Assembly (NCBI GenBank): GCA_016946835.1
Contig: JACVTC010000011.1
Span: forward strand, 1-64,000
Direction of reading: 5' to 3'
From: Neocallimastix lanati (nom. inval.)
Taxonomy: Eukaryota; Neocallimastigomycota; Neocallimastigomycetes; Neocallimastigales; Neocallimastigaceae
DNA: 64,000 nucleotides
Every line of letters begins with the position of its first letter. Positions within the stretch are counted from its first letter, which is position 1. Shown piece by piece: positions 856-42,547 of this stretch. The translations under genes and the position numbers were made by a program. The notes under the pieces are model-generated. The model was not told the DNA's origin. It worked only from the letters and a program-made list of their open reading frames with translations, and ran no database searches.

Positions 856-861
856 ACTTTT

Positions 862-1754
862 TGTAATAATTCTATTAAGAACTAACTCAAAATAGAATTA
901 TTAACTACAACTTAACGACTAATTCATTAAGTTGAGAAAATGAAATAAAATAAATTTTTTACCTTTAATGTAGAGTTTATTATAAAATTAATTATAATAA
1001 TAACACAACATGTAAGAGAAGAATTGTTTGTATAAATTGATCTTAAAAATATGTTTTTGAATAAAATATTTTTATTAATTTATTAAAGTTTAAAAATATA
1101 AAAAATGTTACTATTATAACTATGTTTTTTATAATAATAACTCTTGATTTCTCAAAGAGAACTCAAGAGCCTTATTTATATTTTTTTATGAAAATAAGGT
1201 TAAATAAGAAAGGGTTTTCTAATCTTAACAAATCTCTTATCTAGGAAAAGATTAGATAGAAAAACCTAGATAAGTTTTCGATCGATATTCTATCCATATC
1301 GATCATCGCATTAATTAAGTAAAACCGAATTACTTCTAAAAAGTAATTGGAAAAAATCTTAATTAACCGATTTTCCAATCTAATGATCGAAAATAAAAGA
1401 ATAAAATAATAAAAGATATTTCGATCATATAATTTATCCTTATATTAAAAATATAAAATTAAATAGTTAATAAAATACAGAATACATTATAAAATACAGA
1501 ATACATTATAAAATACAGAATACATTATAAAATACAGAATACAATACAAAATACATTAGTTACAATAGAGAATTTAGCATATTTTAAATATATTATTTAA
1601 AATTAATTAAATAAATTTTGTTAAATTAATGAATATTTAAAATTAAAATAAATAAATTTAATAAATATTATATGTAATTAAATAAAGTTATAGTTATAAT
1701 AACTTAACTAAGAAAATATAATTATTTGCTAACAAATAATTATAGATTCTTACA
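862..1754 (-). repeat. A1 3' LTR
   Basis: This copy matches 7120-8009 almost base for base. Read on the plus strand it begins TGTAATAATTC and ends GATTCTTACA. It contains about four tandem 19-bp units (ATAAAATACAGAATACATT) at 1470-1545. Confidence 0.93.
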
Positions 1755-1767
1755 TTGCTCTGTTTAA

Positions 1768-4700
1768 TTATGATGTTTCCATTAAGTCTTCATTTCTTTT
1801 AGTATATGGTTCCAATTGTGAGATATGAAATACCGGATGGAGATGTAAATTCTCTGGAAGTTCCAAACGGTAATTCATTCTTTCCCTTTTCTCGATGATT
1901 TTAAAAGGTCCAAGATATTGAGTGGATAATTTTCTAGAGGGTTCATTCGTAAAGTAGTATCTTCTAAGCATAACCAAATCATTTACCTTAAAGTCAGGTC
2001 CTACAGATTTTTTATTGTCAGCATATTTCTTAAAATCTTCTTTGGCTTTAACTAAATGTTGACGAAGGGCATTGAAATGTGAAGACCAATCCCTTGTAAG
2101 AACAGAAGCACTATCTTTTAGCAGAATCGGTGGTGAATCAATAACACAATTTGGGTCAAATCCATAGTTAGCATGAAAAGGAGTTTGAGATATTGATTTG
2201 TGAATGGAGTTGTTGTAGGACATTTCACATAAAGGGAGGTAGAAACACCATTCGTTTTGAGCAGAAGAACAATAGCAGCGAAGATATTGCTCTATTACAG
2301 CATTAGCCCGTTCAACCTGACCATTTGATTGTTGGTGGTGAGCAGTAGCAAGTCTTGGTTTGGCACGAATAGCATCGCACAACGAAGTCCAAAATTGAGA
2401 AGAGAATTGGGAGCCATGATCAGACACAATCACTTTAGGAAAACCATGATACTTAAAGACTTGGAAAAGTAAGAGCTTGGCAGTTAAGTCGGCAGAGGGA
2501 ACATCGGAGCAGGGTACTAAATGAATCATTTTAGTTAAATGATCAGAAACAACCATGATACAAGTGCAATCTTGTGAAGAAGGCAATGAAACAATAAAAT
2601 CGACGCCAATAACTTCCCAGGGTTTTGTAGGAGTAGGAAGTGGTATTAGTTTACCATAAGGTTTATGACGACGGATTTTATTTCTACAACAAACATCACA
2701 AGAAGCCACATAATTTGAAATATCTTTTTTCATATTAGGCCACCAGTAGTTCCTTCTGAGTTTTTCAAAGGTCCTATCTACCCCCTGATGGCCACTAGTG
2801 GGTGCATCATGGAAAGACTTTAAAAGTCTAGCCCTGAGACTGGAAGGGATAATAATACGCTTCTGAAAGTGAAGTACGCCATCGACGAAGGAAAATAAAG
2901 AACTTTTGATGTTGTTTGACTTATCCCTTATTTTTAAGAGGATATTTTTACAATAATTATCAGCTTTCTGTGCTTCAATAAGACTACTAATATTGTCATT
3001 TATAGCACAACAGAAAGCATTATTGTTAATTACAGGTTGTGATTCAGATGAAGAGTCAGATTTAAAGTCTGGGCGTCTTGAAAGAGCATCTGGTTTGCCA
3101 CTTTTAGCGCCTGATCTGAATGCAATCCTATAGTCAAACTTTGATAAAAAGAGACTCCAACGAATTTGTCTTTGATTTAAATGTTGGGGTTTCTTAAAAT
3201 ACAATAAGTTCTTGTGGTCTGTTATTACTTGAACAGGAAATTTTGCGCCTTCTAAATGATGCCTCCAAGTTTCAAACGCAGTAATTATAGCAAGAAGTTC
3301 TTTATCATATATAGTATAATTGACTTCTGCTTTATTGAGGGATCTAGAATGGAAGGCTACGGGATGCAATAAGTTATCAGTGTCACTAACCTGAGAAAGT
3401 ATGCATCCGACAGCAAAGTCGCTAGCATCTGTTTCAATGATGAATTCTTTCTCTGGATTAGGAAAAATGAGCACTTCATCAGCTTTAAAAGATTCTTTCA
3501 ATTTATTAAAAGCTTCATTTGCTGATTCATCCCAATTAAATGTAGTATTTTTCCTTAAAAGTCGACGAAGAGGTTCCATATTTTTGGCAAAATTATTGAT
3601 AAACTTTCTATAGAAATTACATAAGCCTAGAAAACTTTGTAATTCCTTTTGATTCTTCGGAATAGGCCAATCCAGAACAGATTTTACCTTATCCTTATCC
3701 ATAGTGAGACCATCTACAGAAACAGTGAAGCCTAAGAAAGTGGTTTTAGTAACATGGAAGTCACATTTCTCTAATTTAGCATATAATCCATTGTTGATGA
3801 GAAGTTGAAGAACGATCCTAACATGTTTAATATGTTCTTCTTCGTTGTTAGAGTAAATAATGATGTCGTCCAGATAGACTTGCATGAAAGAACCAATGAT
3901 ATCACTGAAGATATCTTGTACAAAACGTTGAAAAACCGAAGGGGCATTTCGAAGACCAAAAGGCATAACGAGATATTCGAAATGTCCTAAAGGGGTTCTA
4001 AAAGCAGTAAGATATTCGTGACCTTCTTTAACTCTGATTAGGTTATAAGCAGATCTAAGGTCAAGACGCGTAAATATCTTAGCTCCTTGAAAGGATTCAA
4101 TCAAGTCATTTATTCGTGGAATTGGGTAGCTATTACGGATTGTGATAGCATTTAATCGGCGATAATCTACACAGAGTCTAAGGGTACCATCGCGTTTCAT
4201 TACAAATAATATAGGAGCACCTGCTGGTGATTTTGACTTCCTAATGAATTTCTTTTTTAAGTTTTCCTTAATATAATCCTTTAAAGCTTTCAATTCTTGT
4301 ACAGTAAGAGAGTATATTGGACCAAAATAAAGTTGTCCACCAGGAATAAGCTCAATAGCAATATCATAGTCACGATGGGGTGGTAAGTTCTCAGCTTGTT
4401 TCTTTTCAAATACTATTTTAAGATCCGAATAGTATTTATTAATAATCTCTTCTTTTCCCTGAACGTCAGTGTTTACTTCTTCTGAATCAATCATTGCGGC
4501 ACATAAATCAGAATCTGAGATATCTGTATCAAAAGCCGAATTTGGTAATACTGAATCTTCTTCTGAATTCTCCAACATTGAAGCAGTAATATTTTTATTT
4601 TGATTAAAAAACTTATTACTTTTGGAGGATGGGCAATGTGAGCCACAGTATCTACCAAGGAAGTAGATTCTATTATTTTTATAATCGATGAAAGGATTGT

Positions 4701-5811
4701 GAACGGATAACCAATCCCTTCCAAGAATACCATTAATGCCCTGAAGAGATAGATTAGCAATGCAGAATTCAAAAGTTTCCTTATGATCCATAAATTTTAA
4801 TTTAAGGGGCTTAGTAGTTTGCCTGATATTCATACTTTTCCCATTAGGAAGTTGGATGTTGATTTGGGAATTGAGTCCTAACACAGGTAATTTATTAGAA
4901 TTTGCGAAGTTTTTACAAATAAAACTTCTGGCAGAACCCGAATCAATTAATAGATTTGCCTTAATATTTCTTCCATTAATATCAAGGTAGAAGGTAGTTG
5001 TGATTGTTGTTTTAATATTCGGGGTGTAATTTGCTGAAAGTATGTCGTTTTTTGACTTATTTTTTCTGAAATGAGAATGTTTAGAATTCTTTTCTGATTT
5101 TAATAAATCGTTTCTCTTCCTATGAAACGACATTTTTCCATTAAATTTATTTTTTTGATTGTGGCGTAGACGACTTTCCAAAAAACACTTCTTATCAATT
5201 CCAATAATAATGTTGGTAGCTTCAAAAAGAGTAGATGGCTTTTCGAGTTTATCAAACTCTTCGCGGACTTTGTCAAGTAGACCCTTACCGATTATATCGA
5301 TTAAAACTTCGTCGGGCCATCCTAAACGTCCAGCCAATCTCCGAAATTCAATAGTATATTCAGCAACATTTCCTAGTTGAAGTTGTTTCAATTTCCATAA
5401 CTTTTCCATGATGACATATTTTTGCTTCCTTTCATTCCCAATATCAAAGTTATCCAGTAAGAGCTTCTTAAACTTACTAAATTCAAGGTTCTTTAGAGTA
5501 CCATCAGTTAAAAGAGAAAGACCCCATTTTCTGGCGGTACCAGTAAGTTTATTAATAACAAAAGAACTTTTTAGTTCATCCTTTTGAAAAGAATTTGGAT
5601 GCTCCTTAAAGAAATCTTCACTTTGAATTAAAATTTCTAAGATATTTAGTTTATTGCTTTCATTTTCCTTTTGGAGGACACCATTAGGAGAAAAGAAAGC
5701 AGGAATGAAGTCAGCAATTGCAGTAATAAGTTTGGATGCATTTTCATCATGGAGATAGGAATTATTAACTTCACTTGAGGAAATTGCTTGTTTATTACTA
5801 TTGAAATCCAT
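1768..5811 (-). CDS. Gag-Pol polyprotein of element A1
   Basis: A single 1347-residue frame encodes Gag and Pol fused without a stop between them. Seen in order: a retrotransposon Gag domain (about residues 50-200, no CCHC knuckle visible); an aspartic protease with LIDSGS near 289; a reverse transcriptase with YLDD near 646; RNase H starting near TDAS at 793; an integrase with an HHCC zinc region (GHQG near 1005) and a DDE core (GVDF, SDHGSQF near 1130, NGQVERAN); and a short tail ending soon after HISQLEPY, with no chromodomain. Domain order RT-RNaseH-IN is that of Ty3/gypsy. The ATG lies just downstream of the long leader. It looks whole. The copy at 18745-22788 is nearly identical in sequence. 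Confidence 0.93.
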   Translation of the reverse strand: MDFNSNKQAISSSEVNNSYLHDENASKLITAIADFIPAFFSPNGVLQKENESNKLNILEILIQSEDFFKEHPNSFQKDELKSSFVINKLTGTARKWGLSLLTDGTLKNLEFSKFKKLLLDNFDIGNERKQKYVIMEKLWKLKQLQLGNVAEYTIEFRRLAGRLGWPDEVLIDIIGKGLLDKVREEFDKLEKPSTLFEATNIIIGIDKKCFLESRLRHNQKNKFNGKMSFHRKRNDLLKSEKNSKHSHFRKNKSKNDILSANYTPNIKTTITTTFYLDINGRNIKANLLIDSGSARSFICKNFANSNKLPVLGLNSQINIQLPNGKSMNIRQTTKPLKLKFMDHKETFEFCIANLSLQGINGILGRDWLSVHNPFIDYKNNRIYFLGRYCGSHCPSSKSNKFFNQNKNITASMLENSEEDSVLPNSAFDTDISDSDLCAAMIDSEEVNTDVQGKEEIINKYYSDLKIVFEKKQAENLPPHRDYDIAIELIPGGQLYFGPIYSLTVQELKALKDYIKENLKKKFIRKSKSPAGAPILFVMKRDGTLRLCVDYRRLNAITIRNSYPIPRINDLIESFQGAKIFTRLDLRSAYNLIRVKEGHEYLTAFRTPLGHFEYLVMPFGLRNAPSVFQRFVQDIFSDIIGSFMQVYLDDIIIYSNNEEEHIKHVRIVLQLLINNGLYAKLEKCDFHVTKTTFLGFTVSVDGLTMDKDKVKSVLDWPIPKNQKELQSFLGLCNFYRKFINNFAKNMEPLRRLLRKNTTFNWDESANEAFNKLKESFKADEVLIFPNPEKEFIIETDASDFAVGCILSQVSDTDNLLHPVAFHSRSLNKAEVNYTIYDKELLAIITAFETWRHHLEGAKFPVQVITDHKNLLYFKKPQHLNQRQIRWSLFLSKFDYRIAFRSGAKSGKPDALSRRPDFKSDSSSESQPVINNNAFCCAINDNISSLIEAQKADNYCKNILLKIRDKSNNIKSSLFSFVDGVLHFQKRIIIPSSLRARLLKSFHDAPTSGHQGVDRTFEKLRRNYWWPNMKKDISNYVASCDVCCRNKIRRHKPYGKLIPLPTPTKPWEVIGVDFIVSLPSSQDCTCIMVVSDHLTKMIHLVPCSDVPSADLTAKLLLFQVFKYHGFPKVIVSDHGSQFSSQFWTSLCDAIRAKPRLATAHHQQSNGQVERANAVIEQYLRCYCSSAQNEWCFYLPLCEMSYNNSIHKSISQTPFHANYGFDPNCVIDSPPILLKDSASVLTRDWSSHFNALRQHLVKAKEDFKKYADNKKSVGPDFKVNDLVMLRRYYFTNEPSRKLSTQYLGPFKIIEKRERMNYRLELPENLHLHPVFHISQLEPYTKRNEDLMETS

Positions 5812-6630
5812 TTTTATGCCTTTAGTATAGATAAAAATAGGATAGAGTTAACAAAATGGACATTTTTATTACACAAAATTAAGAATTATAATAAGGATTT
5901 TGATTAATAAATATTTTATAGAATACACTTTAATTTCTTCCTTCCCGTGTTACCGTCATTTGGTTTATCAACCAAAGGGCTGAGGTGTAGGTCTAATGTT
6001 ACAGCCTACCAGTAACGGTCAACTACGTACTTGGAAATTAAATTAAAATGATTAACAAAATATTATTATAAACTTATCCTTTATTATAAACTTCTGCATA
6101 AATACAATATTTAGTATTATTTTAATTAAAATTCAATATCACTTTCTTATGCCTTACAACATTCAAAAACCGGCAAAAGTGATCCATTAAAACATAAAAA
6201 AAATTATTTTATGTTTTCCATAGCAGTTTTATATAATCAAGCATAAAAAAAAAACATAACTGCTATAACCAATTTTGTTTGGGATAAACAAACTGTTAAA
6301 ACCCATTATTAAAATTAAAACTATATAATTTTACTTCAATACATAGTATTGAAGAACCTCGAGGCCTTCGGTGACCAAGAGTTCCTTATTCGCTAGAGCT
6401 ACATTCGGATAACCTATACTTTCACGTGAAATACTGCATTTCCGTACAGTACAAACCGCTACGGTATAGGAAAAGGAGACCTTTCCTTTATTACTACCTA
6501 AAAATGTACTCACCATCCCCAATTAGATGGCTAACTCTATATATGAAGGTATTATTACCTTCTCAGTTTGTTATTTTTAATTTATTTTTTAATGTTTTTA
6601 TTTATTTCTTTATTTATTTATTATTATTAT

Positions 6631-6665
<35 letters not shown>

Positions 6666-6859
6666 ATTTTAAATTATTCTTTCTATTCTTAATTATATTA
6701 TCTAAAATTATTCTATATTATTAATTCTATATTATTAAAATAATTCTAATCTATTATATATTATTATATTCATTCTAAAATTATTTTAATTAAATTATTA
6801 TAATCTAAAACTATTCTAAAATATTAATTTATTATTCTATTATTAAAAAAAAAAAATTT

Positions 6860-6925
<66 letters not shown>

Positions 6926-7119
6926 ATTTCAATCAAAATTGCTAAAAAAAAAAAAAAAAAATTTTTTTTTTTTGTGTCACTCTAGCTATATATTATTATT
7001 GTATTCTAATATATATAATTTCAATAGGCTAATTCACTAATAAAATTTCCAATGTTACACTATTCTAAAAATTTTTCACATTTTATCTAACCCTAAGCTA
7101 ATCTAAGAAGAGTTATTAT
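5812..7119 (-). other. A1 transcribed leader, structured
   Basis: This non-coding stretch lies between the 5' LTR and the Gag start. Most is AT-rich with several long T tracts (6632-6661, 6857-6925). At 5949-6016 there is a less AT-rich island with nested pairing: an outer GTTAC/GTAAC stem enclosing a 7-bp hairpin (TTTGGTT/AACCAAA, 5959-5976) and a GTAGG/CCTAC hairpin (5987-6009). A similarly higher-GC patch follows at 6355-6550. Both islands are conserved in the A2 copy. I see no gene. Confidence 0.7.
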
Positions 7120-8009
7120 TGTAATAATTCTATTAAGAACTAACTCAAAATAGAATTATTAACTACAACTTAACGACTAATTCATTAAGTTGAGAAAATG
7201 AAATAAAATAAATTTTTTACCTTTAATGTAGAGTTTATTATAAAATTAATTATAATAATAACACAACATGTAAGAGAAGAATTGTTTGTATAAATTGATC
7301 TTAAAAATATGTTTTTGAATAAAATATTTTTATTAATTTATTAAAGTTAAAAATATAAAAATGTTACTATTATAACTATGTTTTTTATAATAATAACTCT
7401 TGATTTCTCAAAGAGAACTCAAGAGCCTTATTTATATTTTTTTATGAAAATAAGGTTAAATAAGAAAGGGTTTTCTAATCTTAACAAATCTCTTATCTAG
7501 GAAAAGATTAGATAGAAAAACCTAGATAAGTTTTCGATCGATATTCTATCCATATCGATCATCGCATTAATTAAGTAAAACCGATTACTTCTAAAAAGTA
7601 ATTGGAAAAAATCTTAATTAACCGATTTTCCAATCTAATGATCGAAAATAAAAGAATAAAATAATAAAAGATATTTCGATCATATAATTTATCCTTATAT
7701 TAAAAATATAAAATTAAATAGTTAATAAAATACAGAATACATTATAAAATACAGAATACATTATAAAATACAGAATACATTATAAAATACAGAATACAAT
7801 ACAAAATACATTAGTTACAATAGAGAATTTAGCATATTTTAAATATATTATTTAAAATTAATTAAATAAATTTTGTTAAATTAATGAATATTTAAAATTA
7901 AAATAAATAAATTTAATAAATATTATATGTAATTAAATAAAGTTATAGTTATAATAACTTAACTAAGAAAATATAATTATTTGCTAACAAATAATTATAG
8001 ATTCTTACA
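7120..8009 (-). repeat. A1 5' LTR
   Basis: 890 bp, with the same TG...CA ends as 862-1754. In minus orientation this is the promoter-bearing LTR. The next bases (8010-8014, CTTTT) are the target duplication and overlap the first T of LTR B1. Confidence 0.93.
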
Positions 8010-8013
8010 CTTT

Positions 8014-8851
8014 TGGTAAAGAACGAACATATAATGGATTATTAATTAGAATTTCAACTTACTTTAGAATCCATTATATTATTCTTTACTTAATATTACT
8101 TTACTATATTTTCTATACTAAAATATTTTTTAAATATATTTTTTTTATATTTTTATTAAAAGTTTCTAAAATATTATCAATAATTCTATATTTTTACTAT
8201 TAATATCAATATCTATAATTTACCTAAAATTTTATTATTTTATTAAAGTGTTTATTATCAATATTAATATTTTATTTTTATTTTCAAATATATTATTATA
8301 TTATTATTATATTGTATCAATATTAAACTTGTATTCTTTTTAGTATTTTATTTTATTTTTAAATTGATTATTTAATATTTTTTTATTCCCCACAAATAAA
8401 ATCAAATCTTAATTGATTAATAATAAATATTAAATATATTATAGTTTTTAAATTTATTTTATATAAAATATAAGAATATTATATTAACATTCTTGATTAA
8501 AATAACTTTATTTTTCTGTAAAATCTTTTTAAATTTTGTTTGTTACTTTTCGTATATATTAAATAATTTAGTTTTAGTATATGAAAAATAATATAAAATT
8601 ATATAAACAAAATTTATTAAAATAAAAATACTTATGAATTAGTTAATTTAAATTAATATAAAATTTTAAGTAATTAGTAATAGTAAATATTTTTTTTTAA
8701 ATATGATAATAAAATGTAGAAAGGCTTTACATATTTATTTTTTTTCAAAAAGTATAAATAAGTGAAGTTTTTCAATAATTAAAATGTAGACAAAAAGAAT
8801 ATTGAAAATAAATAATTAAATAAAAATTCTAATAAAACCCGAACCATAACA
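8014..8851 (+). repeat. B1 5' LTR
   Basis: Starts TGGTAAAGAACG and ends CCGAACCATAACA. A TATAAATA box at 8753-8760 is the likely promoter. It has the same length as 16249-17086. Confidence 0.93.
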
Positions 8852-8858
8852 TAATTTA

Positions 8859-8876
8859 TGGTGGAGATATCGGGGA
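8859..8876 (+). promoter_or_regulatory. B1 tRNA primer-binding site
   Basis: TGGTGGAGATATCGGGGA lies 7 bp past the LTR. It begins with TGG, the complement of a tRNA CCA end. The same 18 bases follow the 5' LTR of D (34183-34200) and of remnant B3 (50827-50844), which supports a functional site. The tRNA species was not identified. Confidence 0.8.
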
Positions 8877-9158
8877 ATATTAGAAAAATAAAATTTAATA
8901 TTATTTATTAATTAAATTATTTAACAAAGCCTTGGATATAGATTTCCGGGCTAAGTTTAACCTACATAGTAATTGGGCTAGTAGGCTCTGGACTGCTGTA
9001 TTTTATATTGAATACAGTAGCCGTGGTACCCGCGTGGCATGACGCCGTGAAGAGGCAAGCTGCACGTCAGACAGGGTATACTATCAGATTATCCATAAGT
9101 TTTGTTAAATAATAATAATTAATAATTTAATATTAATATTAATAATAATAAAAGTTAT

Positions 9159-9222
<64 letters not shown>

Positions 9223-9807
9223 TTGGAAAACTTTGGAAAACTTTAGTTTTTGTAGTAACTTTATTTAATTATAGATTATAGATAAAAAATAATAATAAAA
9301 AAAAAAATAATAAAAAGTTAACAAATTTACGAAGTTAATATTCGAGTAAGACAGTGTTAGCTTGCAGGATATTAATTTCATAAACTCTTATTTACAATTT
9401 TGCAAGGTTTTGTAGATTGTAAACGCGAGTATCTCAAGGAACAAATCCTTGACAATTAGGCAAATACGCCCTAGAACTATAAAACCTTCACGCTGAAGGC
9501 AACTACACACTTCAACAGGTGATAGTTTGTTCACTCGCGCAGAAAATAAGAGGTGGGTCAGGTTCGATCCCTGATAAAACCCTGGTCATTCTTGCGAAGT
9601 GACGTTAAAATATATAGTTTTTTTTATTTTTATTTTAGGCTTTTATAAATTTGTTCGCCTATTATTATTATTATTATTATTTTTTTTTTTTTTTGCAATA
9701 AAATAAAAATATATATATTTTTTTCCTTTTATTAAAATAATAAATATTTCATTAATAAATTTTTTTTTATAAATAATAAATTAAATTTTTCTTTAGTGTA
9801 GAACAAA

Positions 9808-9857
<50 letters not shown>

Positions 9858-9899
9858 TTTTTTTAACCAATAGTATTATCATAGATATAGATTTATATA

Positions 9900-9949
<50 letters not shown>

Positions 9950-11225
9950 TAATTAATGATAAATATTAAAATAATAAGCAAAAAAAAAAAATTTTTTTTT
10001 TTGTAGTACAAATTTTTAATTTTTTTAATAAGAATAAATTTTATAAATAAATTTTTTTTTTTATAATTCTAAATAATAAATTGTAATTTTTTTATGTTTA
10101 TCAGTTTATTTTATTTTTTTTTAATATATACATGTACAATATATATATATATAGAATATATAAAATTAGATTATTATTATTATTTATCAAATAAGTGTAT
10201 TATTTTTATAATTTTATATAATTAAATTTTTTTATTGAAATTTTTATAATTGAAATATTTTTTTTTGTGTGTGTTAAATTTTCTATTATTCGTTATATAA
10301 TTAATTAAATTTTAATTAAAAAGAAAAATATAAATAAGCTGTCTTACAACTCTCTACGCGGGATAGTTGAACACCCACACATAATACTTTATTGTTTTGA
10401 TCTTGTTGATACTGGGAAGGATACGTTATTATCTTCTTTATTACTAACAATAAGTTAGCCAAATTAAAAAGAATTTAATATTGCTACCTTCTTTTTATTA
10501 AGTTTCTTAATAATTAACAATCGACATTATCAACTTATCAATAAAGAGCTAAGGGGACTTATTGTAAGAAGGGTTAACAAGCTATATATTTGATGGTTCA
10601 ACACTATATAGTTTGGCTTGTATTTTAACTTTTTATTTAATATTTCATTAAATGTTATAACAAAGAATTAATAGAATAATAAATATATACAAAAAAGAAA
10701 TAAAAATAAAAATAAATATACATTATTATTATTATTTAAGTATTTATACAATTTGCTTTATGTTATATTAATTATTTTAATAAAGGAAATAAATATATTA
10801 AATAAAATTAAATAAAGAAGTTATTACTACAAATAAGTTTAAAAAAAAAAAAAAAAAGATTAAGATATACATATTTTGTGTATTAATGCTTAAGAGAATA
10901 TAATAAACATTAAAATTCATAATAAAAAGCTTCAGATTTTCAAATTGCGTTTTTGAGTCTGAATTTATTTTTTTTTTAGTTTCAGATTTTCGAAGGGTGT
11001 TTTCGAGTCTGAATTAATTTATCAGATTTTCAGAGAGAGATTCTGAGTCTGAATTATTATTGGAATAAAGAATTGGATTGTCAGAGGGTTTTCTGAGTCC
11101 ATAATTATATTATTATTAAACAAAGATAAATTTTTTTTTTTTTTTTTTGTTATTAAATATATTTTTAAAGTAAACATATTTTTAAATTGGATATCATAGC
11201 ATTAATACCATTTTTAAATTTTCAA
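8877..11225 (+). other. B1 leader (long, non-coding, structured)
   Basis: 2.3 kb without a credible gene. It holds: a higher-GC block at 8930-9095 with a CTGTATT/AATACAG hairpin (8996-9017) and a motif shared with E (9038-9083); poly-A tracts (9162-9220, 9813-9853, 9903-9945); a block at 9330-9600 that is also kept in B3; a two-part stem at 10577-10621 (ACAAG and CTATATA pairing with TATATAG and CTTGT); and the four-hairpin row at 10931-11101. Confidence 0.75.
10931..11101 (+). other. Row of four co-varying hairpins in the B1 leader
   Basis: Four successive hairpins lie at 10931-10963, 10981-11013, 11022-11052 and 11074-11101. Each has an outer stem, a small asymmetric internal loop (UUU or similar against a single G) and an inner stem. 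Outer pairs are TCAGA/TCTGA three times and TGGA/TCCA once. Inner pairs are TCAAA/TTTGA, TCGAA/TTCGA, TCAGA/TCTGA and TCAGA/TCTGA. The sequences change while pairing is kept, which suggests selection on RNA shape. The row lies about 125 bp before the Gag ATG, where a packaging or translation signal could sit. The function is unknown. Confidence 0.75.
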
Positions 11226-27792: not shown

Positions 27793-27823
<31 letters not shown>

Positions 27824-27985: not shown

Positions 27986-28041
<56 letters not shown>

Positions 28042-28489: not shown

Positions 28490-28520
<31 letters not shown>

Positions 28521-28962: not shown

Positions 28963-28966
<4 letters not shown>

Positions 28967-31320: not shown

Positions 31321-31388
31321 TCCCTTATGTACTACAAGAAAATGATACAACTTCAAGGGACGAAGTTGACTCTTAAGGGCCGAGAAAT

Positions 31389-32363: not shown

Positions 32364-32367
32364 CTTT

Positions 32368-33156: not shown

Positions 33157-33160
33157 CTTT

Positions 33161-34178
33161 TGGTAAAGAATGAATTAATAACCTTTATTTTATTATTAAT
33201 AATTCTTTACTAAATTGTACTTTCCTATATTCTTCATAACCTAAACCTCATTGTAAATTTAATTTATTTTGATATAAATTAATTTTAATTTGTAAATAAT
33301 GTAAATAAATTTTAATTAATTACTTTATTGTTATATTATTAAATATATGTATATATTAAAATACAATTGTAAATATTAAAATTATACTTTTAAGATACTA
33401 AATTATTAAAAATATTAATTAAATATTATTATAAAAATTATTATAAAATTATTAAAATTATTAATTAAATATTATTCTAAAAATTATTATAAATTATTAA
33501 TATTATAAAATTATTAAAATTATTAAATATTATTATAAAAATTTATATATTATAACTATTAAATATTATTATAAAATTATTAAGATTATTAATTAAATTT
33601 ATTATTAAAAATTATTATTAAAAATTTTTACTTATTATAAAAATTATTATTTAAATATTATTAAATTTATTAATTAAATATTATAAAAATTTTATTTTAT
33701 TTTGAAAATAATTACAAGTATTATTTAAAATAATTAAAGATTATTAAATTTATTATATTAATCTTTAAAAACAATTTATTTAACTTAAAAATATCAAAGA
33801 AAATAGTAAAAACTATTTTCTATATATTTATTTTATAATTATTTTTAATTAAATTATATTTGAATATTATATTATTATATTTATAAAAATTAAAACAAAA
33901 ATGAATTATTGATATAAAATTAATTCAATAATTCTATAAAATTACTTAAATTATAAACAATTAATTATACTTTAAATTTATAAAAAAAATATAAATATTG
34001 TAACAATTTCTTAAAAATTAAATATGTGTACTTTAAATAATAAAATTTTATATTAATAAAAAAAAATAAATAACTTTTAATAAAGAATTATTTTTTTTTT
34101 TATTTAAAATCAAAGCAGGGTAATACCCGTCCCCCCTGCTTGATTTTAAATATCTAAGTGTCAACCCCGAGTCTACCA
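33161..34178 (+). repeat. D 5' LTR
   Basis: Starts TGGTAAAGAATG and ends CGAGTCTACCA. Only the first dozen bases resemble the B LTR strongly. It contains a TATAAATATTG box near 33988 and a small GC-rich hairpin (AGCAGGG with CCCTGCT) near 34115-34140 close to the 3' end, possibly a transcript-end signal. Confidence 0.92.
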
Positions 34179-34182
34179 AAAT

Positions 34183-34200
34183 TGGTGGAGATATCGGGGA
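34183..34200 (+). promoter_or_regulatory. D tRNA primer-binding site
   Basis: TGGTGGAGATATCGGGGA lies 4 bp after the LTR and is identical to that of B1 and B3. Confidence 0.8.
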
Positions 34201-34214
34201 AGAAGAAGAAGAAG

Positions 34215-34246
<32 letters not shown>

Positions 34247-34632
34247 GACCAAGTGGAAGAAGACCAAGAAAAAGAAGACCAAGAAGTAGACCAAGTGGAA
34301 GAAGACCAAGAAAAAGAAGACCAAGAAGTAGACCAAGTGGAAGAAGACCAAGAAAAAGAAGACCAAGAAGTAGACCAAGTGGAAGAAGACCAAGAAAAAG
34401 AAGACCAAGAAGAAAACCAAGAAGAAGACCAGGAAGAAGACCAAGAAGAAAACCAAGAAGAAAACCAAGAAGAAAACCAAGAAGAAGACCAAGAAGAAAA
34501 CCAAGAAGAAGACCAAGAAGAAGACCAAGAAGAAAACCAAGAAGAAGACCAAGAAGAAGACCAAGAAGAAGACCAAGAAGAAGACCAAGAAGAAAACCAA
34601 GAAGAAGACCAAGAAGGAAATTGGAACTACTA
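34201..34632 (+). repeat. Purine-rich minisatellite in the D leader
   Basis: A (GAA)n run is followed by three to four 42-bp units, then shorter GAAGACCAAGAA-like units. One strand is almost pure purine. Read as protein it would give Glu/Asp/Gln repeats for 126 codons from 34253. I see no relative in B, E or A, so I treat it as a repeat rather than a gene. Confidence 0.8.
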
Positions 34633-34725
34633 GGACTTATTTTTTTTTTTTTTGGAATTATGAGAATAATTTTTTTAAATTAAATAATTAAATTTAATAG
34701 AATTAAATTAAATTAAATTAAATTA

Positions 34726-34786
<61 letters not shown>

Positions 34787-34925
34787 CACACTTTTACAAT
34801 CATCATCATCAAAATTTTTTTTTATTGTTATCGGTTTTTGTGTTGTTGTTGTGGTTGGTGTTGTTGTTGTGGTTGGTGTTGTTGTTGTGATTGTTGTTGT
34901 TGTGGTAGTAATAAAAATTAACATC

Positions 34926-35255
34926 AGTTTTATTTGGTCTTCGCGTGCTCCAAATAAAACTATATACTGAGTTTACTGCGTACTAAGCAGTTATAGATAA
35001 TTCTATAATTGCGAGTGGTTTAATCAGGTGTTTGGAGAGGGGCCGGTTACGAACTAATCGAACCCCGATTAGATATAGCGGTAAATACTGTTGGGAAGCA
35101 GAAATTACCCTATAGATCACCCATTATACGTTCAACACGGTTTGGGTGCTCCTCCACTTGACTCAGGCAAATTCACTTAGTATACCGAAATACTAAGGTC
35201 CCTCTGTGTGGTCGGCAGTTGTAATAGATAGCGGTTTTTCAAGTTGTATTAGGTT
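34926..35255 (+). other. Structured higher-GC block in the D leader
   Basis: Several perfect hairpins lie close together: a 12-bp stem AGTTTTATTTGG/CCAAATAAAACT (34926-34937 with 34950-34961); ACTGC/GCAGT near 34975-34991; CTAATCG/CGATTAG (35054-35060 with 35066-35072); and CTTAGTAT/ATACTAAG (35176-35183 with 35190-35197). The base composition is far from the surrounding AT-rich DNA. It may be a packaging or internal ribosome entry region. The function is unknown. Confidence 0.65.
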
Positions 35256-35392
35256 TGTTAATTTACCTTGTTTTTAATTAAGTTTATTTGTTTTTTTTAA
35301 GTTGTAATTATATAAACTTAATAATAATTGTAATTGTAATTGTAATTGTAAATATTGTAATAATAACCGATAACAAATAAATAAATAAATAA

Positions 35393-35441
<49 letters not shown>

Positions 35442-35519
35442 TAATTTTTGTGTTTTTTAAATATTTTTAATTGCTATATTAACAAATTTTTTTTTTGTAA
35501 ATAATTGTATATATTTTTT

Positions 35520-35813
35520 TTATTTAAGTAAAGATAAACGAAAGGGGTTATTAGCTTGAAAGAATAGTGAACACTCCAACTAGTTTATTAATTTATATTT
35601 ATTCTAGTGTCCAGGAGGGGGAGTACGGGTGTATATAGCAAAATTAAATATACACTAGCCGGAAACGTCTCACTAGAGATATAAATTACTTAAATATATA
35701 ATTTTAATTGTAAATAAATAAATAAATAAATAAAAATATAGCAATTAAATAATTAATAAAACAATTTTTTTTTTATTTTATTTTTTTTTTAAAAGTGTGT
35801 TTTTTTTTTTAAA
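35520..35813 (+). other. D pre-gag leader
   Basis: Has GGGGGAGTA (35617-35625) followed by a perfect 8-bp hairpin GTGTATAT/ATATACAC (35629-35636 with 35648-35655). E has the same GGGGGAGTA (28733-28741) just before its own hairpin. The rest, up to the Gag ATG at 35814, is AT-rich with T tracts. Confidence 0.6.
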
Positions 35814-36776
35814 ATGAGTTCAATTAATTTTAAAGATTTAAAAAAAGAACTTAAGGATATTGAAAAAATATCCAAAGAAAATTTAGATGTTAAAACTTGG
35901 AAGTCTGATTTAGAGCTTTGGATAAAGCTTGAACATGTTGAAGACTCCAAGATTATATTTTATGCCTGTGTTTTAACCTCAATTGGTGAAACCAGGAAAG
36001 TCATCCAAGAATTAATGGATGATAATGATAAAGATGATGATAGTGATAGTGATGATGATGATGATGATGATAATGATGATGATGATGATGATAATTATAA
36101 GGATATTGATGATGAAAATGAGGATGATGATAATGAAGAAGATAAAGAAATTGATAAAAAGAATAAGGCTTATCCTTCCCTTAATAGAATTGTAAAAGCT
36201 ATAGAAGAATTTTATGGCATTAGGGAGGATCAAAATAATTTATTAAGAGAGTTACGTGCTCTCAGAATTAAGAGTAATGAAAGAATCAAAGATTTTAATA
36301 TTAAGTATAAAACTTTATATTTAAAATTAAATAAAAAGAAAAGAAGTCAGATAAGTGTTTTAGATTACACAGACTCCATTGAAAACAATGTTGAAGCCTG
36401 GAAACGTCTAACCTTATTTGATAACATTTCTCTGTCAAAAGCCTTTAAAATTGCTGAAAAAGCAGATAGGTTAAATTATATGGGTAGTAATCAAAGAAGA
36501 CATCCTTCTACCCCTTCACCTTCTGCAAATATATCTTCTTTTAATAATAGAGTTAATTTTCATCCTCCTATTAAAAATAAATTAGAACAAAAAGTTAATA
36601 TTAAACCTAAAGAAGATAATGACATAGAGGAATTAACAAGAAAAATGAGAAGTTTAACAATAAAGGCTTGTTATTTCTGTAAAGAACCAGGTCATTATCA
36701 AAACAATTGCCCAAAGTTGAGAGCAATTGTTGAGAAAAATAGGAAGGAAATTAGAAACAATAAACGTTTAAATTGA
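35814..36776 (+). CDS. Gag of element D
   Basis: 320 residues. The N terminus (FKDLKKELKDIEKISKENLD) matches B1 Gag closely. A run of Asp/Asn/Glu (about residues 68-110) takes the place of the B acidic stretch. Then come the Gag core and a zinc knuckle CYFCKEPGHYQNNC near 285. It ends at a stop beside TTTAAAT, with pol in the -1 frame. Expected roles are the particle shell and RNA binding. Confidence 0.9.
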   Translation: MSSINFKDLKKELKDIEKISKENLDVKTWKSDLELWIKLEHVEDSKIIFYACVLTSIGETRKVIQELMDDNDKDDDSDSDDDDDDDNDDDDDDNYKDIDDENEDDDNEEDKEIDKKNKAYPSLNRIVKAIEEFYGIREDQNNLLRELRALRIKSNERIKDFNIKYKTLYLKLNKKKRSQISVLDYTDSIENNVEAWKRLTLFDNISLSKAFKIAEKADRLNYMGSNQRRHPSTPSPSANISSFNNRVNFHPPIKNKLEQKVNIKPKEDNDIEELTRKMRSLTIKACYFCKEPGHYQNNCPKLRAIVEKNRKEIRNNKRLN

Positions 36777-36801
36777 ATAATGGGATAAGAAGCTCTCCCA
36801 T
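36767..36801 (+). promoter_or_regulatory. -1 programmed frameshift signal, gag/pol of D
   Basis: The heptamer TTTAAAT (36767-36773) is in gag phase, followed by a 6-nt spacer and the hairpin ATGGGA/TCCCAT (36780-36785 with 36796-36801, loop of 10). Compared with B1 (AGGGAG/CTCCCT) and E (CGGGAG/CTCCCG), both arms change together. Confidence 0.85.
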
Positions 36802-39800
36802 ACTTAATAAAGCAGCTTCACTTAAATATCAAAAAGAAATTAAAAATTCTCGTCTTTCTAATATTGAAGAAACTCCTGCTAATAAAAGGGTGGTTAATAA
36901 AAAGAAAGTTGATTATTTAGTAGGAGCATCTAAACGTAAAATTTATGATGTTAATAATGATGAAGGTAGTGCAGAGAAAAGGATTCATAAGTCGTTGAAG
37001 GAGAATCCTAAACCTATAATAACTCCTGCATTACGAAAACAGAAAGAACGAGAAGTAAAAGAAAATAATATAAGTAATAAAATTGTTAAACAAATTAAAC
37101 CATCTATTCTAGCTCAACCACGAATTGAAAAAGAAAAAGAGATTGAAAGACAAATTCGTGATAATGAAAGAGCTAGTAATAGTAATACTAATTATAGTAA
37201 TAATCATAGTAATGATAATAGTAATGATAATATTAATAATAATTCATTAGTGAATGATGAAGATATTATAAATAATGTAAATAATGATAAAAGAAAGAAT
37301 AAAAATTTAATGAAAGAAAATAATGATAATAATAAAAGTATTGTGAAGGAGAATAATAAAGTAATTGATTTAACAAAGGTGTTAATTAGTAAAGATAAAG
37401 ATACTCAAAAAGAAAATAAAAGTTCTAGAGTATCTAGGAAAATTAAGATGCAATCGGGGGAAGAAGAATATGATATTCTTAAAGATTTAAATTCTGCCCA
37501 TTGCAATATTACTTTTGGACAGTTATTGGATGCTGCTCCAAAATTAAGATATAAGGTGTCACAGGGTATTAAATTGGATAGGGACCAATCTAATATCTCT
37601 GGGGTGTTGGATAATGTGTCAGCCACGACTGTGGTCGTTAATAACATAGACCACACTTATAAAAGTAAAGGTAACGAACCATGTGAAGAGGATATTGCCA
37701 TGGTTGATGTTACAGTTGAAGGTGTTTCGGGGAAGGCTTTAATTGATTCATGTAGTAATTTAAGTATAATTACTCAACAATTTTTAGATAAGCTTCCGTC
37801 CGAATATGAACCTATTGATATTAGTCGTGGCAGAATTAGGTTGGCAACTAAGAATGATGATTACTCGGAAGGTTATATCATTCGGGTGCCAGTAAAGATT
37901 AATAATCTTGTATTAATGGTTAATTGTAGAATAGTAGAAAAGGAGGATCCTTTTTACGATATTCTAATTAACTTAAAAACCCAAATTGATTATAATTTGT
38001 TTATCCACCCCATTTTATATAGTTTGTGTCAAATTACTCCTGAGGGAGTAATTGACGTTATTGCACCTATTAATAATGATTATGAAGATGAAGAAAAGTT
38101 GTTGTGTATGATTAAGGCTTTGGATGAGGATTCCAAAAAGAATGATTTAAAGAAAATTGAAGGATTATCCCTAAAGCAATATATTCATCATGAAATTTTC
38201 CTAAATACTTTAAACGAAAAATATAAAGATGAAATAATTAAAATTCTGGAGGAGAACTTAGAAATAGTTGCTACTTCTTCAGAAGAATTAACACCTTCTG
38301 ATCTTCCTCCACATAAGATTAATTTAATTCCTGGTGCGAAACCAGTTAAGCAAAGGTGCTATAGATTAGTTAAATTTAAGTCGGATATACTTAAGGAGGA
38401 ATTAATTAAATTAATTAATAAGAAATTAATTGAACCTTCTTGTTCCGAATGGTCATCGCCAATAGTGTTAGTACCGAAGAAGAACGGTAAATGGCGATTA
38501 TGTATTGATTACCGTAAGGTTAATGATTTAACAGTTAAAGATTCTTATTCATTACCTTACATTGATGAGATATTTGATAGTTTAGATGGGGCACAGATTT
38601 TTACAACAATGGATCTTTACTCTGGTTATCATCAAATTTTGATGGATGAGGAAAGCGTAGAAATTACCACCTTCACCACAAAATTTGGTAACTACCAATT
38701 CAAGGTTATGCCTTTTGGTTTAACCGGAGCCCCAGCTACATTTCAAAGGGAAATGAATAGGATTCTTTTCCCATTTATAGGAAAGTTTGTTTTTAACTTT
38801 ATAGATGATATTTTAATATACTCTAAGAGTATAGAAGAACATATAAGCCACATTAGGCAAGTGTTGGAAGTATTTCGCCAACACAAATTAAAAATTAACA
38901 TTGAAAAATGTGCCTTTATGCAGACTGAAGTAGAAGTCTTAGGTCATAAGGCATCAGTGAAAGGTTTAAGTCCCCAGGATAGCAAAATTAAGGCTATCAA
39001 GGAGTGGGTAGCACCTGTTGATGTTCATGAATTACGATCTTTTCTTGGAGCAGTAGGATATTATAGAAACTTTATTGATAAATATGCTCAAATCTCTGCT
39101 CCTTTATGTAAATTATTAAGAAAGAATGTTAAATATAAATGGAATACTGAACATCAACAAAGTTTTGATCTGTTAAAAGAAAAGTTAATAAATGCTCCAA
39201 TTTTAAAATATCCAAGTTTTAATCAAAGGTTTATAATTAGAACTGATGCTTCTTATGAAGGTATTGGAGGAGTATTACTCCAAGAAGATTTAGAAACCAA
39301 AAAGGAACATCCAGTTCATTATATAAGTAGAAGTTTAAGTAAAGCCGAGAAAAATTATGGCATTACTGACTTGGAAGGAGCTGCATTAATTTATTGTATT
39401 ACTAAGTTGAAATCTTATATATTAGGAAATCCTAATAAAACAGTAGTAATAACAGATCATAAACCTTTAATCAGTTTCTTTAAAAATAAGGAACCTAATA
39501 ATGCTAGGCAAGCAAGGTGGTGCTTAACTGTTAGTACCCTTGGTGTTGAAATTCAATATCAAATGGGTAAGAAAAATGTGTTAGCCGATGCATTATCTAG
39601 GATGAAGAAAGGAGCTGATTCTGTGGTATTGGCAACTAAGTTAACTTCAAAGGAAGAAGAAGAGTTGCTTTCAAAAACTATTAAAGACTTTATAAATGAA
39701 AAATTTGTTACGATAGATGGTGAAGATTACTTTGTTGATGGTAATGACTATCGTAAATTAATTACTGATCAAACGGAAAGAGTAAAACTTATTTTAGAAG

Positions 39801-40822
39801 CCCATAAGATAGGTCATGAGGGATATTATAAGACTTATCAAAGGCTTCGTAAAAGTTTTTATTGGAATAATATGGTGATGGATATTAAAAGAGTGGTGCA
39901 AAGTTGTGACAAGTGTCAGTTGAATAGGTCACAACCATATCCAGAACCTACAGAAAATATTCCAACTAAAGTAGAAGGTCCTTTTATACATTTGGGTTTA
40001 GATATTATTGGACCTTTGATTAAAACGAAGAATAATAATCAATATATTATGGTTGTGGTGGATTACTTCACCAAATGGGTTGAAGCAGAACCCACGGAAA
40101 ATATAACATCACAGGATGTGATTAAGTTCTTAATTAATGTGTTTGCTCGTCATGGTGTTCCACAGGTAATAACAACTGACAATGGTGTTCAGTTCACCTC
40201 GGACATGACGAAAATATTTTTAGATCTCTATGATGTATATGTGAAGTTTATTTCCACATATCATCCTGAAAGTAATGGACTTACGGAAAACCGTAATAAA
40301 GAGATCGGCAAGTTATTGAGGTTGTTGGGTTCTAAGAATAAAGATTGGGATGAAGTTTTACCATCCGCCTTATGGGCTCTTAGAACTACCAAAAATAAGG
40401 TAACAAAACATTCAAGTTTTGAGTTGGTTTATGGTAGGGAGGATCAGCAGCCTTTTGATATTGCTGCTAGACCTACCAAGGATATTAATAAGTCATGGGA
40501 TGAAGTGTTGTTAGAAAAATTTATAAATCATTACCGATGGACTTTAGAAGCAGCCGAAAATGTTAAAAATGCAAATAAGTATTGGGCTGCTAGAAGAGAG
40601 GAAAAGAATAGTTTGAATGAAGGAAAAAGAATTAGGGAAGGTGATTTAGTTCTAGTTAGAAATTTTTCAAGAACTAAACTAGAACCTTATTTTGTTGGTC
40701 CTCTTAAAGTTATAAAAAAACAATTTAATACGGTTACCTTGGCTGATCCAAATTCTGGAATTCAAATGAATAGGAATGTTCATTTGAAGAATATAGTCAA
40801 GTATAACTCAGCTTCGATGTAG
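36773..40822 (+). CDS. Pol polyprotein of element D
   Basis: About 1349 residues in the -1 frame relative to gag. It has a basic Asn/Lys-rich linker (to about 260), a retropepsin-like protease segment near 325, reverse transcriptase with FIDD near 676, RNase H from about TDAS near 823, and an integrase with a zinc region (GHEGYY near 1012) and a DDE core (GLDIIG near 1075, TTDNG near 1132, ENRNKEIG near 1170). It ends after YFVGPLKVI and RNVHLKNIVKY without a chromodomain. It looks whole. It aligns with B1 Pol over its whole length, but the DNA differs throughout, so the two families split long ago. Confidence 0.92.
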   Translation: MNNGIRSSPILNKAASLKYQKEIKNSRLSNIEETPANKRVVNKKKVDYLVGASKRKIYDVNNDEGSAEKRIHKSLKENPKPIITPALRKQKEREVKENNISNKIVKQIKPSILAQPRIEKEKEIERQIRDNERASNSNTNYSNNHSNDNSNDNINNNSLVNDEDIINNVNNDKRKNKNLMKENNDNNKSIVKENNKVIDLTKVLISKDKDTQKENKSSRVSRKIKMQSGEEEYDILKDLNSAHCNITFGQLLDAAPKLRYKVSQGIKLDRDQSNISGVLDNVSATTVVVNNIDHTYKSKGNEPCEEDIAMVDVTVEGVSGKALIDSCSNLSIITQQFLDKLPSEYEPIDISRGRIRLATKNDDYSEGYIIRVPVKINNLVLMVNCRIVEKEDPFYDILINLKTQIDYNLFIHPILYSLCQITPEGVIDVIAPINNDYEDEEKLLCMIKALDEDSKKNDLKKIEGLSLKQYIHHEIFLNTLNEKYKDEIIKILEENLEIVATSSEELTPSDLPPHKINLIPGAKPVKQRCYRLVKFKSDILKEELIKLINKKLIEPSCSEWSSPIVLVPKKNGKWRLCIDYRKVNDLTVKDSYSLPYIDEIFDSLDGAQIFTTMDLYSGYHQILMDEESVEITTFTTKFGNYQFKVMPFGLTGAPATFQREMNRILFPFIGKFVFNFIDDILIYSKSIEEHISHIRQVLEVFRQHKLKINIEKCAFMQTEVEVLGHKASVKGLSPQDSKIKAIKEWVAPVDVHELRSFLGAVGYYRNFIDKYAQISAPLCKLLRKNVKYKWNTEHQQSFDLLKEKLINAPILKYPSFNQRFIIRTDASYEGIGGVLLQEDLETKKEHPVHYISRSLSKAEKNYGITDLEGAALIYCITKLKSYILGNPNKTVVITDHKPLISFFKNKEPNNARQARWCLTVSTLGVEIQYQMGKKNVLADALSRMKKGADSVVLATKLTSKEEEELLSKTIKDFINEKFVTIDGEDYFVDGNDYRKLITDQTERVKLILEAHKIGHEGYYKTYQRLRKSFYWNNMVMDIKRVVQSCDKCQLNRSQPYPEPTENIPTKVEGPFIHLGLDIIGPLIKTKNNNQYIMVVVDYFTKWVEAEPTENITSQDVIKFLINVFARHGVPQVITTDNGVQFTSDMTKIFLDLYDVYVKFISTYHPESNGLTENRNKEIGKLLRLLGSKNKDWDEVLPSALWALRTTKNKVTKHSSFELVYGREDQQPFDIAARPTKDINKSWDEVLLEKFINHYRWTLEAAENVKNANKYWAARREEKNSLNEGKRIREGDLVLVRNFSRTKLEPYFVGPLKVIKKQFNTVTLADPNSGIQMNRNVHLKNIVKYNSASM

Positions 40823-40832
40823 CTTGAGTTTT

Positions 40833-40845
40833 AGAGGGGGCATCA
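40833..40845 (+). promoter_or_regulatory. D polypurine tract
   Basis: AGAGGGGGCATCA lies directly before the 3' LTR and matches that of B1 in position and form. Confidence 0.75.
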
Positions 40846-41864
40846 TGGTAAAGAATGAATTAATAACCTTTATTTTATTATTAATAATTCTTTACTAAAT
40901 TGTACTTTCCTATATTCTTCATAACCTAAACCTCATTGTAAATTTAATTTATTTTGATATAAATTAATTTTAATTTGTAAATAATGTAAATAAATTTTAA
41001 TTAATTACTTTATTGTTATATTATTAAATATATGTATATATTAAAATACAATTGTAAATATTAAAATTATACTTTTAAGATACTAAATTATTAAAAATAT
41101 TAATTAAATATTATTATAAAAATTATTATAAAATTATTAAAATTATTAATTAAATATTATTCTAAAAATTATTATAAATTATTAATATTATAAAATTATT
41201 AAAATTATTAAATATTATTATAAAAATTTATATATTATAACTATTAAATATTATTATAAAATTATTAAGATTATTAATTAAATTTATTATTAAAAATTAT
41301 TATTAAAAATTTTTACTTATTATAAAAATTATTATTTAAATATTATTAAATTTATTAATTAAATATTATAAAAATTTTATTTTATTTTGAAAATAATTAC
41401 AAGTATTATTTAAAATAATTAAAGATTATTAAATTTATTATATTAATCTTTAAAAACAATTTATTTAACTTAAAAATATCAAAGAAAATAGTAAAAACTA
41501 TTTTCTATATATTTATTTTATAATTATTTTTAATTAAATTATATTTGAATATTATATTATTATATTTATAAAAATTAAAACAAAAATGAATTATTGATAT
41601 AAAATTAATTCAATAATTCTATAAAATTACTTAAATTATAAACAATTAATTATACTTTAAATTTATAAAAAAAATATAAATATTGTAACAATTTCTTAAA
41701 AATTAAATATGTGTACTTTAAATAATAAAATTTTATATTAATAAAAAAAAATAAATAACTTTTAATAAAGAATTATTTTTTTTTTTATTTAAAATCAAAG
41801 CAGGGTAATACCCGTCCCCCCCTGCTTGATTTTAAATATCTAAGTGTCAACCCCGAGTCTACCA
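40846..41864 (+). repeat. D 3' LTR
   Basis: 1019 bp, matching the 5' LTR except for about one base in a C run. Confidence 0.92.
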
Positions 41865-41868
41865 CTTT

Positions 41869-42542
41869 TGATAAATAACCAAATTATAAATTAAGAAAAA
41901 TCAATAAAATGGAATAATAACCCTCTTCATTAGTTATTGATAATTATAAAATAATATTTTAATAAAAATAAATTAAAAGATTTAAAATTATTAAATAAAT
42001 ATTATTTTAATTTAAAGAACAATGTATTTTATATTAAATTATTCTTTTATTTTACTTTAACGATTTTAAATTAAATCTCAGTTTAAATTGATATTAATAT
42101 TAATTAAAAAGAAACTTATTAATAATAACAAAATTGTTTATTTTATCTTAAAAGTGTTTACTTAAAATAATTATATAGTTTTATTTTAAATAATTTAAAC
42201 TTAAAAGAAAAATATAAAAACATGTAAATATTTCTTTAAAAATAAAAAATCAGAATTCAAGAATTAAAAATTTAAAATTTAAGTTTTAATAAATTATTTT
42301 CTTTTATTCTCATTTATTTTAAATACTTTTTATTAAGAATATAAATATTCAAAATAATAAAAAGTACAATTTTATATTGATAAATAAAGTTTTATTATAA
42401 AAAAAAAACAAATATTCTTTTCTTATTTTAAACTGTAGTGTTTTAATTAACATTTTTGTGTTAATAACTACCCTTTTAATTGACAAATTATTATCACTTT
42501 TAGAAGTAAATTCTAAATTAAGATAATAATCAACATTTGTCA
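41869..42542 (+). repeat. Solo LTR H (C/E-type)
   Basis: 674 bp with TGATAAAT...ATTTGTCA ends. It shares the AAAAGAAAAATATAAAAACATGT stretch (first 20 bases of the match near 42205) with LTR E and has CTTT on both sides (41865-41868, 42543-42546). No internal region is present. Confidence 0.7.
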
Positions 42543-42547
42543 CTTTA

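Follow-up and report, generated by a model that had tools for sequence, protein, structure and literature searches.

Stacked Ty3-type LTR retrotransposons in Neocallimastix lanati point to a shared landing point upstream of a Pol III-type repeat gene

At least 43 kb at the start of a contig (C13) of the anaerobic fungus Neocallimastix lanati (nom. inval.; GenBank assembly GCA_016946835.1, 199 Mb in 762 contigs) is occupied by long terminal repeat (LTR) units of several families set end to end. The array lies in the 64,000-nucleotide stretch analysed here (the window: JACVTC010000011.1, positions 1 to 64,000, beginning at the contig start; 78% A+T). Our reading, with a probability of about 0.88, is that Ty3-type LTR retrotransposons have inserted here one after another at a fixed landing point, upstream of an RNA polymerase III (Pol III)-type gene of the tl family, a dispersed tRNA-like repeat, and so formed an ordered stack. 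In the sampled loci, the landing point lies about 10–20 bp upstream of Pol III-type genes and is common to several families, which also adjoin true tRNA genes. Throughout, C plus a number denotes a contig of the assembly and L plus a number a locus fetched from the genome.

From the contig start to position 43223 we counted 11 LTR units (J, A1, B1, C, A2, B2, E, G, D, H and K'; Table 1). Two LTRs together with long pol frames are present in A1, B1, A2 and D (the A2 pol in two pieces), and C, B2, G, H and K' are solo LTRs. A first-pass annotation of this DNA had described a stack of ten elements; the stack is real, and K' is the additional unit. The ten junctions lie where that annotation placed them, with 3–6 bp between adjoining LTR ends. 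At the last of them, assigned to H and an element I, H actually adjoins K', and I was rejected as the last stack member, being a separate insertion outside the stack. Nor is every LTR complete to its TG or CA, as had been stated, since G lacks its first TG: its left end in the window reads TAATACAG, and the intact family end, found in L079, reads TGTAATACAG. CTTT, reported for nine junctions, is present in eight of the ten by a strict count and in nine if the T of C's own TG is included. K', which borders a sequence known from elsewhere in the genome as the upstream flank of tl, is read as the oldest unit of the stack.

Table 1. Units, junctions and far-edge flank of the window stack, and the neighbouring element I (window positions)
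Feature	Position	Strand	Remarks
J, LTR	1..855	+	right end CATAACA; 94% match to L032, 93% to L031; start some 215 bp beyond the left end of the contig, by comparison with L031, in which this LTR begins TGATAAAGAATG
J/A1 junction	856..861	.	ACTTTT
A1, full Ty3/gypsy element	862..8009	-	pol 1768-5811 (minus); LTRs 862-1754 and 7120-8009, differing by 0 substitutions and three 1-bp indels; Pfam
A1/B1 junction	8010..8013	.	CTTT
B1, full Ty3/gypsy element	8014..17086	+	gag-like open reading frame (ORF) 11187-12119, pol 12302-16225; LTRs 8014-8851 and 16249-17086 identical
B1/C junction	17087..17089	.	CTT; fourth T is the first base of C
C, solo LTR	17090..17844	+	duplication ACTT
C/A2 junction	17845..17849	.	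ACTTT
A2, family A, two LTRs	17850..24974	-	pol ORFs 20509-22788 and 18745-20478; compared LTR parts identical
A2/B2 junction	24975..24977	.	TTT
B2, solo LTR, family B	24978..25818	+	10 substitutions from B1
B2/E junction	25819..25822	.	CTTT
E, element with two LTRs	25823..32363	+	gag-like ORF 28963-29895
E/G junction	32364..32367	.	CTTT
G, solo LTR	32368..33156	+	first TG absent
G/D junction	33157..33160	.	CTTT
D, full Ty3/gypsy element	33161..41864	+	gag-like ORF 35814-36776, pol 36773-40822; LTR pair with 0 substitutions, one 1-bp indel
D/H junction	41865..41868	.	CTTT
H, solo LTR	41869..42542	+	left end resembles C and E
H/K' junction	42543..42547	.	CTTTA
K', solo LTR	42548..43223	+	TGATACGG...GTCCTGTACCA; duplication TTTA
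tl-repeat upstream flank	43224..43239	-	TGTAACGAATCCTAAA; far edge of stack
Element I	43277..50298		Ty3/gypsy pol (Pfam); duplication AATTG (by eye)

The tl repeat has motifs that resemble A and B boxes (by eye) and can form a 9–11 bp hairpin (z -3.55). A DNA search with copy L147 gave 214 candidate places, 40 of which were scored (84–100% identity over up to 168 bp). Copies without an adjoining LTR continue upstream as TGTAACGAATCCTAAA (L148, L150, L153, L155, L157 and L158, and L146 with one change). This 16-mer has 74 matches on many contigs of the genome, and its one exact match in the window stands at the far edge of the stack, where the flank begins with the duplication TTTA directly after K'; a multiple alignment that included the window flank had misplaced it, and the 16-mer search settled its position. 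In 8 of the 40 scored copies the flank is joined directly to the gene, and in 11 it is displaced upstream on the same strand, by 1.2, 1.5, 1.5, 1.6, 2.7, 3.0, 4.3, 7.4, 22.6, 31.6 and 32.1 kb; three copies have a flank downstream within 60 kb, each time that of another copy. An LTR-like TG follows the flank after 1–6 bp in all eight displaced flanks fetched (L165–L172), and six of these eight ends recur in other loci (by eye; L166, L167, L168, L169, L170 and L172). Most displaced pairs also have an LTR-like end on the gene side (not clear in L166; in L168 the gene is damaged). L166 has a flank variant, TAAAGTTTCA, whose reverse complement contains the window's ACTTTA, so that the window CTTT is most simply the upstream sequence of the stack's own tl copy, predicted beyond the contig start. 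As a separate observation, the hairpins of L055 and L167 have, by eye, A-U where others have G-C.

The stacks traced to their end are one on C1 and small ones. On C1 a tl gene on the minus strand, left of an element Q, is followed by Q and at least ten more LTR units, and the displaced flank stands 31.6 kb away, at 3899364. Over the 30 kb read, the tl gene is followed by Q, C, A, x, y, B, J, H, D, z and C, and all named families have their left ends on the same strand. The anchor is not the sequence left of C, a candidate rejected because it is the end of Q, but lies past the opposite end of that element. The ten junctions that follow Q are TGAAATT, AATTTTG, TTTTG, TTT, ATTT, ATTT, ATTT, ATTTT, TTTTG and TTT. 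These are pieces of the tl gene's own upstream sequence, TGAAATTTTA, with neighbouring bases, and several include the TG of the next LTR.

The left-end pattern of the B/D-type LTRs was matched exactly at 756 places, internal LTR ends included, of which 100 were listed and 70 read (the first 30 listed and 40 fetched; five of the other 30 fall within the window). Eighteen of the 70 are internal LTR ends and 52 are outer ends. A CA stands 0–6 bp upstream in 42 of the 52, with a peak at 4 bp (26/52); the same test at offsets 10–59 in the same flanks averaged 10.5 and never exceeded 18, which bears out the earlier claim that insertion is not random. One of the 42 (L078) has a tl-like flank and a CA by chance. 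Among the other ten ends, seven adjoin tRNA or tRNA-like flanks: L068 (Rfam), L055 and L071 (alignment to tl), and L010, L019, L020 and L039 (by eye). The family A pattern has 353 exact matches, internal LTR ends included, and that of the control family I has 104. In samples of 20 each, a CA lies within 0–7 bp in 17 of the family A ends, one of them by chance (L135, 15 bp from a tRNA-Ser), and in 6 of the family I ends, only two of which (L109 and L118) are at LTR ends by eye. Copies of family I itself are often found, by eye, about 45–80 bp within an LTR that in turn adjoins a tRNA or a further LTR (for example L106, L112, L113, L114 and L116), as though the family preferred these places less strictly.

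Among true tRNA genes, the 5' end of the initiator tRNA-Met gene has 51 exact matches, 20 of which were fetched, and ARAGORN calls a tRNA in 19 of these 20, one as Ile. Upstream of 13 of the 20 genes, a repeat that is also found in another sampled context ends within 0–20 bp, and at least five of the 13 are named LTR ends (L079, G; L082, J; L087, B; L092, y; L097, z). LTR ends also lie about 15 bp from one tRNA-Leu, one tRNA-Ala, one tRNA-Ser and a second kind of tRNA-Met (L106, L112, L135 and L008). On C24 (896236-984705), twelve initiator tRNA-Met genes stand on one strand within 90 kb, and several of those read have LTR sequence upstream.

The duplicated bases are a property of the locus. 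We compared 42 B/D-type junctions outside the window (L078 left out, L048 included) and three window junctions. Among 12 same-strand pairs no more than 20 kb apart, two of them from the window, 2.67 of 4 bases are shared, against 1.84 of 4 among the 978 other pairs (permutation p = 0.0027). Only one base is shared in four of the 12 close pairs, as would be expected if they belonged to neighbouring separate stacks. Close-pair duplications elsewhere read AATT on C5 and C6 and TGTG on C25, and 2 of the 42 junctions end in CTTT. The 4–5 bp duplication is thus whatever stands at the landing point of that locus, and stacks differ for that reason. Most duplications read are 4 bp long: this length applies to B, C, D, H and J, and 5 bp to family A and Q (TTTTG, CTTTT and TGAAA), all by eye and with some doubt left by T runs. 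The genome-wide collection of junctions that the first-pass annotation had proposed, run here on samples, supports it in one respect, outer A and B/D ends being mostly at LTR ends or tRNA-like genes, and departs from it in another, since the duplicated bases differ between loci, tend to agree within them and are not generally CTTT. Its view of a landing site that is common to several families and renewed by each insertion's own duplication holds.

A duplication that overlaps a neighbour's LTR means that the neighbour was present first. Six such overlaps were found by eye, with no systematic count. In the window, the B1 duplication CTTT includes the first T of C and the A1 duplication CTTTT the first T of B1, both less sure because of T runs. 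On C1, the duplication of x includes the TG of y and that of z the TG of the next C; in L003, x, the unit nearest the tRNA, includes the TCA of C; and in L031, J includes the TG of D. In the three anchored cases (C1 twice and L003) the older neighbour lies away from the gene and the newer unit nearer to it. For the window and L031 overlaps the anchor is outside the view, and their direction agrees with the window flank.

We propose that the Pol III initiation machinery, by analogy with Ty3 presumably TFIIIB, brings the integrases to the landing point. Each insertion would duplicate 4–5 bp and leave a fresh copy beside the gene; the next element would land between the gene and the older element, and older units would be pushed outward. 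Since several families would target the same point, and this point would be copied at each insertion, stacks would follow. The window stack would probably have grown leftward, in the order K', H, D, G, E, B2, A2, C, B1, A1, J, of which the duplications support only C before B1 before A1 and K' first. Its anchor gene is predicted beyond the contig start.

The explanation offered by the first-pass annotation was that integrases recognise CTTT next to the TG of an LTR start and that duplication of CTTT renews the target. CTTT at eight or nine of the ten window junctions, and at two C24 junctions 6.5 kb apart, would fit. We consider this hardly credible: CTTT ends 2 of the 42 sampled B/D-type junctions outside the window and none of the ten read on C1, stacks elsewhere share duplications other than CTTT, the same kinds of ends adjoin tRNA genes with other flanks, and the CTTT of the window is accounted for by a flank variant of the tl gene family. 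Targeting of the LTR ends themselves, for example via a protein on the terminal LTR sequence and with no gene needed, would explain why the majority of sampled B/D-type and A outer ends adjoin an LTR end and those of control family I rarely do. It is nevertheless unlikely, given the 11 tl genes whose flank is displaced upstream, with an LTR-like end directly after it in all eight read, and the copies that adjoin tRNA genes with no LTR between. The 18 of 70 sampled B/D-type ends that are intact internal LTR ends also speak against it, if weakly, as an internal end that had been hit would score as an outer one. LTR ends seem to be targeted because a new insertion adjoins the previous one, between it and the Pol III-type gene.

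Might the junctions instead be copies of a few events, multiplied by block duplication or unequal LTR recombination? Positions 851-8851 (A1 and the 5' LTR of B1) match 17840-25818 (A2 and B2) at 97.5% over 8 kb, and C-family LTRs are evenly spaced on C379 (four in steps of about 6.38 kb at 595855-615768, probably elements sharing LTRs through recombination). After a later block duplication, however, the LTRs of A1 should differ from each other at least as much as A1 differs from A2. The LTR pairs of A1, A2 and B1 have 0 substitutions, against 5 between A1 and A2 and 10 between B1 and B2; A1/A2 and B1/B2 are, on this comparison and barring gene conversion between LTRs, separate insertions, and block duplication was rejected. 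The remaining junctions join ends of different families, and the duplications shift by 1–2 bp between units, so that we hold multiplication of a few events to be very unlikely. An assembly artefact might be suspected because the window starts at a contig start within the stack; the same anatomy inside long contigs, such as C1:3867783-3899364 in a contig of 4.0 Mb, makes its probability negligible.

Several points weigh against our reading of gene-anchored stacks. The gene that would anchor the window stack is not in view, as it would lie off the contig. No exact 16-mer flank lies within 60 kb upstream of 21 of the 40 tl copies, 55 of the 74 flanks are without a scored gene partner (40 of 214 candidates scored), and the displaced pairs at 7.4, 22.6 and 32.1 kb are outside the eight of eleven that were read. 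Pol III transcription of tl rests on box motifs recognised by eye and on the parallel with tRNA genes, because neither program calls a tRNA: Rfam gave no match on loci L139, L055, L071 and L078, and ARAGORN none on L139 or the flanks of L055, L071 and L078, a program that also missed L068, an Rfam call. The tl repeat could be an element like a short interspersed nuclear element or an unknown Pol III RNA. Three of the 52 outer B/D-type ends (L015, L025 and L048) and three of the 20 family A ends (L120, L132 and L137) failed the CA test with no tRNA-like neighbour seen, and the A and I samples were picked by the analyst as outer ends from listed places. True tRNA genes were sampled on the upstream side, and for 7 of the 20 initiator tRNA-Met genes no repeat end was confirmed in another sampled context of a small comparison set: L081 matches only other flanks of the same gene and L080 only low-complexity DNA, the repeats matched by L083, L088 and L091 are cut short or stop further away, and L090 and L095 match nothing. 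With so few comparison loci, some of these seven upstream sequences may still be LTR ends. Finally, the two copies of the A2 duplication disagree by 1–2 bases, and LTR pairs cannot rank the insertions, as those of the stack differ by 0–1 substitution.

Pfam identifies the pol ORFs of A1, B1, D and I as Ty3/gypsy pol with reverse transcriptase, RNase H and integrase, and the best match of the D and A1 pol among solved structures is Ty3 Gag-Pol (chain 7q5b). The D pol has one protein match at 99% and another at 58% over 27% of its length, labelled Orpsp1, which we take to be Orpinomyces. The gag-like ORF of E has no Pfam match and E holds no pol ORF of at least 200 amino acids; E is perhaps a non-autonomous element. 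The C-terminus of the family I pol looks chromodomain-like by eye, with no chromodomain match from Pfam. Within the window each family keeps a constant orientation, the pol of family A pointing toward the presumed anchor side and that of B/D away from it; L057 has, by eye, a family A end in the opposite orientation, and L132 and L137 look, also by eye, like LTR ends that lack the final CA. Right of element I lies a truncated B-family fragment (50299-51502), and 61881-62198 and 63256-63573 form low-complexity long inverted arms that are 92% complementary. On the window, Rfam found nothing at gathering thresholds and ARAGORN found no tRNA.

Targeting of Pol III genes by LTR elements is already known from yeasts and Dictyostelium. 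Ty3 of Saccharomyces cerevisiae is reported to insert, through TFIIIB, at -6/-2 relative to the start of Pol III transcription and to leave a 5-bp duplication (PMC8632968). The elements described here resemble it in their Ty3/gypsy pol, with the D and A matches to Ty3 Gag-Pol, and in landing near a Pol III gene; they differ in that several families share one point, with mostly 4-bp duplications and stacks of 31.6 kb (C1) and at least 43 kb (window). Tj1 of Schizosaccharomyces japonicus, likewise an LTR element that lands upstream of Pol III starts, does so 1–10 bp from predicted starts; the accessible text attributes its concentration in centromeres to the tRNA genes grouped there (PMC4600332). 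That text describes no ordered multi-family stack with a shared duplication, and here the tl repeat is among the anchors. For Dictyostelium, the accessible sections of PMC5006619 describe DGLT-A, with LTR elements and solo LTRs upstream of tRNA genes, in twenty copies in D. discoideum, as against the 756 (B/D-type) and 353 (A) exact left ends found here, internal ends included. The same sections describe DIRS-1 as having a tyrosine recombinase and probably integrating by homologous recombination; DIRS-1 elements, too, pile into existing copies, whereas the present stacks have short duplications, an integrase and a gene anchor. We found no description of such targeting in anaerobic fungi in the open-licence literature. 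What we regard as new are stacks in which several families lie in order and the original flank is still legible, together with the role of the tl repeat as an anchor.

In the samples of two family types, Pol III-gene targeting predominates, here in a lineage that is neither a yeast nor Dictyostelium, and a small repeat gene that has no Rfam match seems to serve as a target in addition to true tRNA genes. Where ten or more units are stacked and the original flank is still readable, the order of insertion could be had with no molecular dating; filled and empty copies of a single target can also be compared. More tentatively, and at somewhat less than even odds, tl may be an undescribed, Pol III-transcribed mobile repeat, a moving landing pad behind which families stack in order of arrival, with nearly the same 4–5 bp duplicated each time. 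If this is true, the stacks would keep a time-ordered record of active families that needs no sequence clock, and elements could accumulate there indefinitely while sparing host genes.

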